Assembly: GCA_963662155.1 (NCBI GenBank)
Contig: OY759261.1
Location: 50,471,414 to 50,535,413, forward strand
Source of the DNA: Lamellibrachia columna
Taxonomy: Eukaryota > Annelida > Polychaeta > Sabellida > Siboglinidae
Length of the DNA stretch: 64,000 nt
Direction: 5' to 3'
Each line of letters opens with the position of its first letter. The first letter of the stretch is position 1. This document shows positions 55,197 to 63,935 of the stretch, in pieces. Under the pieces are notes generated by a model. That model did no database searches, was not told where the DNA came from, and worked only from the letters and a program-made list of their open reading frames with translations. The position numbers and the translations under genes were made by a program.

Positions 55197-55469
55197 CTTC
55201 AGGACAAAACAAAGAAGAATCAAATTTAAGTACATAAAATATCTGTTAAATTTATAATAAAGGATATAGACCTTTGAACACATTGATATAATTTGCCTTT
55301 GGAACCTTTCTGAATACCTGCGATGTGGAACTATAAAACATTCATACAAACTACCAAAATGTTACAAAAAGTTAAATTTAATCACTGGTATTTCTGATAA
55401 ATTTATGTTATTGTGAAAGGAATTTAACCCCAACTGAAACTTGCGGTACCAGCCAGGAGGTACAATAAG

Positions 55470-56235
55470 TACCAAACCTATGACATGTGATAAGTAGCAA
55501 ACCAATGACTGCTGTGATAAGTAGCAAACCAATGACTGCTGTGATAAGTAACAAACCCATGACTGTTGTGATAAGTAACAAACCAATGACTGCTGTGATA
55601 AGTAACAAACCAATGACTGCTGTGATGAGTAACAAACTAATGACTGCTGTGATGAGTAACAAACCAATGACTGCTGTGATGAGTAACAAACCAATGACTG
55701 CTTTGATGAGTAACAAACCAATGACTGCTGTGATGAGTAACAAACCAATGACTGCTGTGATAAGTAATGACCTCTGACTGTTGTGATATGTAACAAACCA
55801 ATGACTGCTGTGATAAGTAATGGCCCATGACTGTTGTGATAAGCAACAAACCAATGACTGCTGTGATGAGTAACAAACCAATGACTGCTGTGATAAGTAA
55901 TGACCTATGACTGTTGTGATATGTAACAAACTAATGACTGCTGTGATAAGTAACAAACCAATGACTGCTGTGATAAGTAATGGCCCATGACTGTTGTGAT
56001 AAGTAACAAACCAATGACTGATGTGATAAGTAACAAACCAATGACTGATGTGATAAGTAATGACCCATGACTTTTGTGATAAGTAACAAACCAATGACTG
56101 ATGTGATAAGTAATGACCCATGACTTTTGTGATAAGTAACAAACCAGCAACTGCTGTGATAACTAAAAAAACTATGACTGCTATGATAAGTAGCAAACCC
56201 ATGACTGCTATGATAAGTAGCAAACCAATGACAAC
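55470..56235. repeat. 27-bp minisatellite copied from TM exon end, ~27 copies
   Basis: Plus-strand unit AACCAATGACTGCTGTGATA + AGTAACA. On the minus (gene) strand it reads TTGGTTTGCTACTTATCACA + GCAGTCA, matching the E3 text AGTCTGCTACTTATTATAGC at about 17 of 20 positions. The array starts about 8 bases after the E3 donor. Translated in the exon-like register it repeats a 9-residue hydrophobic unit IGLLLI(I/T)AV, resembling the TM helix SLLLIIAAIA. Variant units (GACCCATGACTTTTGTGA) form higher-order pairs. Confidence 0.85.
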
Positions 56236-56242
56236 TACAAAC

Positions 56243-56343
56243 CTTGTAGGCAGCAATAGCAGCTATAATAAGTAGCAGACTGGTGACAGATACATAGAAG
56301 ATGAAGACAATTGGTAGTGGGTCGGGTCCTGTCATTGACATCG
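56243..56343 (-). CDS. Host membrane-protein gene, TM exon E3
   Basis: Acceptor CTGTTTATTATTTCAG|CG and donor TACAAG|GTTTGTAG. 101 bases: two bases completing a codon begun in E2, then 33 codons, ending in phase 0. It encodes MSMTGPDPLPIVFIFYVS followed by VTSLLLIIAAIAAYK, a single hydrophobic helix of about 23 residues ending in Lys. The joined product reads Cys-rich ectodomain, helix, YKWDARRK, as expected for a type I membrane protein. The next intron opens with the 27-bp array derived from this exon. Confidence 0.75.
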
Positions 56344-56559
56344 CTGAAATAATAAACAGTGCAAGTATGATAATGTTCAGAATTATACAATTTGGTTCTC
56401 ATAAAATAGCACAAACCAATGTGAATAGATAACCAGTGTTTATTGTTTTATCTTAATTCTATGTATATACCCCCAAGGCTCTGGATGTCCCTAAAATCTA
56501 CCTACATGGGTATGCCCCTCAAAGCTACCTACTTGGATGGTATTCAAATAATAATAATA

Positions 56560-58390
56560 ATTAACCTCTATGGTGCCTATATCCTCAGGAACCTGAGCTC
56601 AGAGGCGCAATAAAACAGAATCATTAAGCATAATCGTGAACAGGGACGCGCAAACGTCAGCATCAGAACGAGGGACAACCGAACATTGGTGGAAATGAAA
56701 TTTGGAATAGATGTCTTGAGTTTTTTTTGGAAAATAGCAATAGTTTCAGATGTTTTCAAGGTGATAGGGAGTTCATTCCAGACCCTAGGCACAGCGACAG
56801 AGAAAGCACGTTTGCCCAAGTTAAGTTTTGTTTTCGGTACAATAAGTTGTTGTGAAATTGATGATCTTAGCTGCGTAGGGATATTTGAAAGATGCAGGAG
56901 ACTAGCCAAGTAGGATGGTTGTTGTGTAGATAGAGCACGATATATGTAAGAGTGGACAGCTTAAAATCAATTCGATAAGAAACAAGAAGCCAGTGTAACT
57001 GTTTAAGTAGTGGTAGTGACGGTGAAAACCGAGGTGCCCTGAGAACCATACGTGCCAGACAATTTTGTACTCGTTGGAGTTTAGCCAATTGTCTCTTAGC
57101 AATGTTATTTAGTAGTGAATTGCAATAGTCAAGGCGGCTACTAATTAATGCCATTGATATTGTTTTAGCAGTAGATATAGATATGTGACGCCAAATTCGA
57201 CGGAGATCACAAATATGATAGAAACAGGATTTACATACTTGAGAAATATGCTGGCGAATGTTGAAGTTACTATCAAAGACAACACCAAGATTACGAACAG
57301 TATCTGATGGGAATGTATCACTGCCAAGCAGTTTAACTGGAAAATGGTTGATGACCCTATTTCGTTGTTGTTTAGTGCCAATAATAATAAGGTCTGTTTT
57401 ATCTGGATTAAGCTTTAGCTTACTTGATTCCATCCACAGCAAGATATCAGTAAGACAATCACTTAAAGTCGATACATATTCTTGTGCATTTGATGACTGA
57501 GATTATGATTAGTAATGACTTGGCTGAGCGATGTAGTATATAAGCTGAACAGAACAGGGCCAAGGACGGATCCTTGCAGCACTCCAAATGGAAGGTGTTG
57601 TGGGCAAAATAATGTGCCAGATATGTTAATACTTTAATATCTGTCTGAAAAATATGATTTGAACCACCGAAGAGCTGGACCAGAAATGCCAAAATATCTA
57701 TGGAGGCGTTGTAAAAGGATTGAATGATCAATTGTATTGAAAGCAGTTGAGAGATCAACTAAAGTGAGTGCTGTGACTTTGCCATTGTCCATGTTATCAA
57801 CTATATCATTGTGTATCTTGAGAAGAGCTGTTTTGGTAGAGTGGAATCGTTTATATGCAGACTGTAGATCATTTGATAAGTGATGGTTGTAAATATAATA
57901 TGAAGGCGATTAGCAACCACGTTTTCCAATATTTTTGACAGAAAACTGTGATCAATCAATCAATCAATCAATGTGAGTTTATTTGGTCACTCATTTACAA
58001 TGTTGTTACAGGTATGGTCATAAATAAGCTGATTTAGTAACTCAGGAGATTCTCTGGAAACCCCAAGGGGCTTATTGCGAGAACCACCCATGATTATGTA
58101 TAGTAATCTTGTCATGGAATGATGCTGCCAGTTGGCAATTATGTTAATAATACTAGATATGAAGCAAATAAAAAATTACAACTTGGCATCTTAATCCATC
58201 AATCTAGTACAATCTAACAACTTGTTAATTGAACAATATAGTGAATATTCGTTAGTATATGCAAAAAATATGTTAATAATAGTAAATGTGACGCATATAG
58301 AAATTACAAGTGGTTGTACTCCATCATTCTAGCACAATATAACAACGTGAGGCCCAAAACTAGTTGAACAATATAGTGATGATTCGTTAG

Positions 58391-58421
<31 letters not shown>

Positions 58422-58920
58422 TTGGAGATAGGACGATAATTCTTTAGGTCATTTTTGCACAAAGTTTGTTTTTTAATAAGAGGATTTACAAGAGCTTGTT
58501 TGAAATCCCACGGAACAACTCCACTCTGCATTGAAAGGTTTATAATAGTAGTAATGGGAAATATAAGCTGATCAATACAGCTTTTTACTAGAAGTGTTGG
58601 AAATGGGTCAAGATCACACGATTTGTTAGGATATTTTTAATAATAATGAGAACTTCATTAGTAGTTGCAGGTGTGAAACTCTGTAGTGTTTTTTCAAAAA
58701 GTGGTGGTTCAGGGAAATCATAGTCATTATCATTAATGAAAAAATTTGATCGAATACGAGCAATCTTATCTGTAGAGTATTTTGAAAAAGAACTACATAA
58801 TGTATCCAATGAAGAATGTTCAGGCAGAGCTTTTAATTTCTGCCGATGTAGAATTATGTTTACAGATTTCCACATCTGGCGAGGGTTTTCAGAATTTATT
58901 GAAATAAAATATGTATGAAG
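56560..58920 (-). pseudogene. L2-type LINE ORF2 relic in host intron
   Basis: From right to left: frame 58875-58588 (MWKSVNIILHRQKLKALPEH; DFPEPPLFEKTLQSFTPAT), then GVVPWDFKQALVNPLIKK (58520), a foreign insertion at 57951-58421, then palm text (57950-57520) with L-V-D-L-S-T-A-F and GVLQGSVLGPVLF. The YADD-containing segment is deleted near 57505: NHNLSHQ runs directly into the downstream region. Then MLWMESSKLKLNPDKTDLII, NLGVVFDSNFN, SRLDYCNSLLNNIAKRQLAK and the terminal RAFSVAVPRVWNELPITLKT. The order and motifs are those of L2 elements abundant in fish and marine invertebrates. Catalytically dead. Same sense as the gene. Confidence 0.85.
57951..58421 (-). mobile_element. LINE 3'-end insertion within the L2 relic
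   Basis: It begins (plus strand) ATCAATCAATCAATCAATCA and ends with A27 at 58395-58421, and is absent from the flanking L2 reading frame. Read on minus it ends AATAAACTCACATTGATTGA..., a typical LINE 3' tail with a GATT microsatellite. The A27 tract would then mark the 5' end. The alternative is a plus-oriented poly(A) retrocopy with an ATCA repeat at its start. Confidence 0.55.
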
Positions 58921-58957
58921 CTAACGACTTGGAAATGACCCTGGGTGACCTTCAAAG

Positions 58958-59565
58958 CTACCAACTTGGGCAAGGCCCTGGACGACACTCAAATCTACCT
59001 ACTTGGGTATGACCCTGGATAGCACCCAAATCTACCTGGTTGGGCATGGCACTGGATGGCCCTCAAAGCTACCTACCGGTACTTGGATATGGCCCTCAAA
59101 GCTGCCTACTTGGGTAGGGTATGGCCCTGGATGGCCCTCAAAGCTACCTACTTGGGCATGGCACTGGATGGCCCTCAAAGCTACCTACTTTGGTATGGCC
59201 CTGGATGGCTCTAAAAGCTACCTTCTTGGGCATGGCCCTCAAAGCTACCTACTTGGGTATGGCCCTGGATGGCCCTCAAAGCTAGCTACTTGGGCATGGC
59301 ACTGGATGGCACTCAAAGCTACCTACTTGGGTATGGCCCTGGATGGCACTCAAAGCTACCTACTTGGGTACGGCACTGGATGGCCCTCAAAGCTACCTTC
59401 TTGGGCATGGCCCTCAAAGCTTACTACTTGAGTATGGCCCTGGATGGCCCTCAAAGCTACCTACTTGGGTATGGTCCTGGATGGCACTCAAAGCTACCTT
59501 CTTGGGCATGGCCCTCAAAGCTACCTACTTGGGTATGGCCCTGGATGGCCCTCAAAGCTACCTAC
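58958..59565. repeat. 37-bp minisatellite of exon E2 end plus 5' splice site
   Basis: About 16 units. On the gene (minus) strand each reads GGGCCATCCAGGGCCATACC + CAAGTAGGTAGCTTTGA. The last bases of exon E2 and its donor are GGGCCATCCAGGGCCATACT + ACA|GTAGGTAGCTTTGA, so each unit is a copy of the exon end, the donor and the first intron bases. Variants change GGCCCT to GGCACT or drop 12-14 bases. Confidence 0.9.
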
Positions 59566-59730
59566 TGTAGTATGGCCCTGGATGGCCCATCATTCCAAAG
59601 TAGCACATGGAAACGTTTGCACAGAAAGACTCCTCATGGAGTGGCTGTCCTTGAGAGTTGACAGAGCACCAGCGACAGACGACGTGTAGGTGGCACTCCC
59701 TTTCAATATGAGACGAACATTTAGTTTCTG
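59566..59730 (-). CDS. Host membrane-protein gene, Cys-rich exon E2
   Basis: Acceptor candidate AATCGGTCAG|CAG and donor TACTACA|GTAGGTAG. The frame reads ETKCSSHIERECHLHVVCRW, CSVNSQGQPLHEESFCANVS, MCYFGMMGHPGPYY and ends with one base, matching E3's two-base start. Six cysteines in 54 codons indicate a disulfide-bonded extracellular, membrane-proximal segment. C-R-W-C...F-C...C-[FY]-x-G-x-x-G loosely recalls the juxtamembrane region of cache-domain proteins (CACHD1/alpha2-delta group), but I cannot verify that. The exon end is the founder of the 37-bp array. Confidence 0.65.
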
Positions 59731-63828: not shown

Positions 63829-63935
63829 CTGTTGGTATGTTGGTTCTCACAAATATTCACCCCCGTTATCCTGTAGCAGGGACATTCACACTCGCTAGGT
63901 GGCTTCTCTTTACACTCGGGCATTGTCTTCATGTT
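63829..63935 (-). CDS. Host membrane-protein gene, upstream Cys-rich exon E1
   Basis: Acceptor CTCAATTGTAG|AACATG and donor ACCAACAG|GTGAATGT. The frame reads NMKTMPECKEKPPSECECPC, then YRITGVNICENQHTN, with five cysteines. It ends with two bases, which does not fit E2's one-base requirement, so at least one exon between 59731 and 63828 is unseen, or E1 belongs to another transcript. The cysteine-rich composition and shared strand suggest an ectodomain exon of the same gene. Confidence 0.45.

Follow-up and report, generated by a model that had tools for sequence, protein, structure and literature searches.

A probable “mirage”-type minisatellite at an exon–intron junction of a CACHD1-like gene in the annelid Lamellibrachia columna

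Introduction

“Mirage” minisatellites have been described in lancelets, where they occur in the genes for Adh3, the globins BflGb6 and BflGb9, troponin C and PGBD5 (PMC3087553, PMC3902484). As described in the accessible text of these reports, they may lie at either boundary, their length varies between haplotypes or copies, and the repeated junctions are reported not to disturb splicing. Somatic variation in repeat length is reported at the Adh3 locus of lancelets. Intron 1 of an earthworm metallothionein gene, by the accessible part of its report, carries ordinary intronic minisatellites (PMC12783039).

The array described here (array 1) has in common with the lancelet repeats, to the extent that the available portions of those papers describe them, a tandem repeat that spans an exon–intron boundary and a splice signal in many of its units (PMC3087553, PMC3902484). 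It is made of 18–22 units, compared with 6 and 3 in two haplotypes of the lancelet BflGb6 as given in the same portions, and it differs further in its gene (CACHD1-like), in the LINE within the array and in its annelid host. With the earthworm metallothionein locus it shares, judging from that report's accessible text, annelid intron arrays of minisatellite size as well as coding sequences that are alike between tandem copies while the arrays differ; exon sequence or splice sites within the units are not mentioned in that text (PMC12783039), whereas array 1 has both.

Array 1 lies in a stretch of 64,000 nucleotides (the window). In the mitochondrial contig of the same assembly (C30, 16,783 bases), cox1 is open under genetic codes 5, 9, 13 and 24, but not under code 2, in the stretch read. 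The gene order of this contig, read by eye with part of the sequence reading N, is cox1-cox2-atp8-cox3-nad6-cob-atp6-nad5 and nad1-nad3-nad2-cox1, which we take to be the annelid ground pattern.

Results

The junction and its host gene

The gene part within the window comprises two exons and, further upstream, one candidate:

59566..59730, minus strand: exon E2 of the CACHD1-like gene, the C-terminal end of the ectodomain (...CYFGMMGHPGPYY), with its start as placed by the first-pass annotation
56243..56343, minus strand: exon E1, with a phase-compatible TTTCAG acceptor and a hydrophobic frame, carrying the transmembrane (TM) segment ...PIVFIFYVSVTSLLLIIAAIAAYK
63829..63935, minus strand: candidate upstream exon (ECECPC peptide), with no score support

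The last full codons of E2 spell GHPGPYY; one more coding base precedes GTAGGT, and the phase-1 join of E2 to E1 opens a transmembrane frame. The joined E2+E1 peptide matches CACHD1 (PDB 8s7c_A, residues 1037-1096; E = 3.3e-5), and it is because of this homology that E2 is taken to be coding. The match extends a few residues beyond the E2/E1 join; we infer the join from phase, from hydrophobicity and from this short stretch of homology over the junction. A Cys-rich C-terminal ectodomain followed by a single TM segment, as in CACHD1, is found here in the frame that follows the phase-1 join, and the host gene looks like a CACHD1-like gene, whose VWA and Cache domains would fall upstream of the part within the window. 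The same peptide found no homologue in a large protein collection and no family in Pfam. The candidate exon at 63829-63935 scored 2.6 bits against CACHD1 (independent E > 1000) and, when added, worsened the match, the E-value rising to 1.2e-4; it is out of phase with E2, so that, if it is real, another exon would have to lie in between. CACHD1-like genes look expanded in this genome, with 15 places at E < 1e-4 to one exon, spread over contigs C1, C3, C8, C12, C14 and C15.

Structure of array 1

The array is divided by a mobile element into a main part and a remnant:

58918..59588, minus strand: array 1 (TRF), 18 units of 37 bp (some of 27 bp), each with exon end, donor and intron start
56550..58917 (edges approximate), minus strand: a broken LINE in array 1, with an RVT_1 piece, an ATT-rich tail and array sequence on both sides
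56485..56536, minus strand: remnant of array 1 beyond the LINE (TRF), about two units, with two exact copies of GTAGGTAG

The array, the exon and the donor that the first-pass annotation placed here were borne out, with corrections. The array had been said to begin exactly at the end of E2; TRF puts its start inside the exon, within the last 23 coding bases. Each unit (approximately 23 exon and 14 intron nucleotides) reads GGGCCATCCAGGGCCATAC, then CCAA, then GTAGGTAGCTTTGA, and the shorter, 27-bp units are missing ten bases that lie between a pair of internal GGGCCAT copies. The count of 18 includes the exon's own copy, and the degenerate rest before the LINE is set apart. About 16 near-identical donors had been proposed: that there are many holds true, and the number was slightly too high, since in the unit alignment 14 of 18 units carry GT at the donor position and 10 carry the exact GTAGGT. 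The 8-mer GTAGGTAG is found exactly 12 times in the window, on the minus strand only: 10 times in array 1 and twice in the remnant.

That an exon–donor junction was amplified into a minisatellite, as had also been proposed, agrees with the match of unit to exon, which scores 39, whereas none of 1000 dinucleotide shuffles exceeds 23; 19 bases of the unit are identical to exon sequence and code for a motif conserved in the paralogues. The unit that belongs to E2 itself departs from the consensus of the array at three of the four bases before GT (TACA vs CCAA), and the exon end and the array have thus diverged.

The LINE, which the first-pass annotation had not noticed, splits array 1 and separates about two units from the rest. 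Its RVT_1 match (E = 4.9e-6, in one ORF piece) reaches 26.8 bits, below the Pfam cut-off of 29.6. A piece ending in 27 A's (57952-58421), which adjoins TCAA repeats, is apparently inserted in the LINE.

Three copies of the locus

The locus is present three times on contig C1, at 50.53, 58.01 and 58.53 Mb. In the longest alignments, copies 1 and 2 are 95.7% identical, copies 1 and 3 are 92.9 to 94.6% identical, and copies 2 and 3 are 92.8 and 94.3% identical; E2 differs by 0 or 1 nucleotide across the three. The LINE lies inside the array in every copy, and the array thus predates both the LINE and the triplication. Array 1 measures 678, 678 and 834 bp (from 30 nucleotides inside E2 to the LINE), or 18, 18 and 22 units, and so has evidently changed in length since the triplication. 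Three features of a mirage minisatellite are found at this locus: a tandem unit that spans an exon–intron boundary (the boundary being placed by homology and phase), a splice signal in many, not all, of the units, and a length that is unstable across the three gene copies.

A second array lies on the other side of E1:

55465..56232, minus strand: array 2, a 27-bp minisatellite (TRF) of 28.7 copies, directly after E1

At the two sister loci, array 2 counts 249.7 and 70.7 copies. Its unit bears a weak resemblance to the stretch of E1 that codes for the TM segment (a score attained by 15 of 1000 shuffles), and its status as a second junction array is plausible but weak. E1 may read on into array 2, with an open frame of 155, 96 and 153 aa in the three gene copies. 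In five candidate paralogous TM exons the open frame continues past YK/YR, the apparent end of E1, which suggests that array 2 may have replaced an old exon end; among these five, a donor after the extended frame is visible in L031 only.

Donor sites and reading frames

59560..59565, minus strand: the first donor, ACA/GTAGGT, phase 1; probably the authentic one, with a place and phase like those of 12 of 12 paralogous exons

The pre-mRNA would indeed carry many donors, as the first-pass annotation foresaw: by a hand-entered donor weight matrix, the first donor is outscored by 10 of the 13 other units that bear GT (CAA/GTAGGT, present in seven units, reaches 6.70 bits vs 4.33 for ACA/GTAGGT), and 25 of the 47 other GT sites in array 1 score at least as high as it does. 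A transmembrane frame with E1 is obtained from the first donor only. The next GT, at 59561 (4 nucleotides beyond the first donor), shifts E1 out of that frame, and donors from the second unit on (those at 59528 and 59464 were translated) lead to GPYYSR and then a stop, in any unit. The earlier idea that additional units could give rise to length variants of the protein therefore fails: the later donors would yield no length series, but either a single truncated product or an mRNA marked for decay. Over the 58 units of the three gene copies, the donor columns match the consensus at 93.5%, compared with 93.6% for the other columns, and the T of GT is among the least kept (79%); the donor columns are thus kept no better than the rest, and we see no sign of selection on the repeated donors.

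Paralogous exons without the array

A search of the genome (879,693,805 bases, 30 contigs) with the E2 peptide gave 17 matches, three of which are the copies of the array locus; 12 of the 14 others (E < 1e-4) were read as loci L014-L025, the two weakest (E 0.02 and 1.6) being left out. The alignments of these 12 end at residue 51, 52 or 53 of 54, and all 12 have a phase-1 donor at the exon end when read by eye (11 GT and 1 GC), located 4 bases after PY, PH or LY in nine and 10 bases after a GHYG variant in three. An array starting within 25 nucleotides of the exon end was found in none of the 12; the repeats closest to these exon ends lie at +29 (a TG repeat) and +54 (an array with a 19-bp period). 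Twelve paralogues with a like exon end and phase, and without the array, indicate that the junction is ancestral and that the array is derived from the exon; by this comparison the exon is evidently old and the array grew out of its junction. A candidate phase-compatible TM exon was seen 3' of 5 of 10 paralogous E2-like exons, using 9.9-kb stretches (three of nine holding N) and a hydrophobicity filter without a false-positive control.

Junction arrays elsewhere in the genome

The sample comprised 85 exons, 60 from P450 and 25 from kinase genes, with exon ends taken as the ends of profile matches. The P450 exons were hand-picked from the 93 matches listed (20 for spread and 40 more, by no fixed rule); many are clustered paralogues and so not independent, and one (L054) has no upstream flank. 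The kinase exons are the first 25, in listed order, among 136 matches that pass a filter (match at most 330 bp, no stops, open frame at most 330 aa), the filter having been applied to the 136. Clearly exon-derived arrays were found at four of the 85 exons (1 of 60 P450 and 3 of 25 kinase), with 0 of 1000 shuffles reaching the score in each case:

L123, donor side: repeats of 31 bases along with GTAC (exon end set by eye)
L093, acceptor side: 23 bases repeated
L105, acceptor side: about 14 exon bases plus the acceptor, tested with a piece that included a few bases of intron
L122, a kinase exon start (C5:56576685-56577396), acceptor side: six units of 63 nt, every one holding an open frame and a CAG that resembles an acceptor

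The upstream acceptors of L122 could add 21 residues each. In light of these four exons, and of the lancelet cases described in the accessible text of the published reports (PMC3087553, PMC3902484), the word “unusual” that the first-pass annotation had applied to such an amplification is too strong.

Several other candidates were set aside. The arrays at L049, L060 and L098 all start at the exon edge by TRF; L049 shares only about 8 of 9 exon bases with its array (a score reached by 28 of 1000 shuffles), and the exon content of L060 and its paralogue L098 is not beyond chance (571 and 705 of 1000). L060 and L098, on contig C13, carry 26-bp arrays at two paralogous P450 genes, the first unit reading on from the donor. 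Arrays that start inside the intron (L042), that contain the intron end only (L075) or that end at the edge with exon content not demonstrated (L106, L107) were not counted.

Within 60 exon bases of the edge, arrays cover 0 to 2.5% on the donor side and 1.2 to 4.5% on the acceptor side; the shares are 5.2 and 5.7%, respectively, over the first 10 bases of the intron and reach 11 to 18% more than 30 bases into it. Since coverage is lower at exon edges than deep in the intron, junctions are not array hotspots, and we rejected the idea that splice sites preferentially seed arrays; the pattern fits random birth of arrays combined with selective removal from exons. An apparent donor-side bias in the first 20 P450 exons (three arrays touching or near the donor vs none at the acceptor) vanished in the larger sample. 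The window itself (1-64000) contains many other minisatellites, with 12.7% of it in arrays of period at least 9.

Discussion

Array 1 is, in our judgment, probably a “mirage”-type minisatellite that arose when the E2–intron junction was duplicated and that lengthened afterwards, the first donor being used and the later donors being decoys without effect in what is a neutral passenger. Such an array would have started with a duplication of roughly 23 coding and 14 intron bases and may have grown by slippage or unequal exchange. The first donor would be picked by exon definition and is predicted to be the sole donor that keeps the transmembrane frame; the later donors would have no effect, and the array would simply be carried along, kept off the exon by selection on coding sequence.

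An unlikely alternative is that the decoy donors are used, so that the mRNA ends in GPYYSR and a stop and is either lost to nonsense-mediated decay or translated into a secreted, unanchored ectodomain, with array length tuning the fraction. The higher scores of most other GT-bearing units (by the hand-entered matrix), the common stop before the TM exon into which all donors from the second unit on read and the varying array length among gene copies would all suit such a role; against it stand the donor columns, which are not specially conserved, and the lancelet mirages, which the accessible portions of the published reports describe without aberrant mRNA (PMC3087553, PMC3902484).

Two further readings were weighed. 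It seems very improbable that a dispersed satellite or part of a mobile element landed at the exon by chance, its likeness to the exon being secondary: this genome is rich in minisatellites (to judge by the share of the window given above), but the exact exon bases in the unit code for a paralogue-conserved motif, and a whole-genome search with the array region gave nine matches, all at the three gene copies, although this search skips very common words and is not proof. That the array is an artefact of assembling a repetitive region is likewise very improbable; tandem arrays are hard to assemble and the three near copies lie on one contig, but the same array edge, the same LINE and a unit-by-unit correspondence recur in copies that are about 4 to 7% apart.

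The mirage-type reading of array 1 touches on two open questions: how a splice site is chosen among many near-identical ones, and whether introns can be born by duplication of a junction. More tentatively, it is possible, though we would not yet call it probable, that minisatellites spanning a junction form a class found throughout the genome of this annelid, occurring at a few per cent of its exons and providing a lasting supply of spare donors and acceptors, in some cases also of spare in-frame exon pieces (as at L122), from which new introns, exons and protein repeats could arise. A single genome here offers several junction arrays, paralogues with and without the array, and copies that differ in unit number as objects for testing these questions, and the finding would extend the phenomenon from lancelets, as known from the accessible text of those reports (PMC3087553, PMC3902484), to another phylum.
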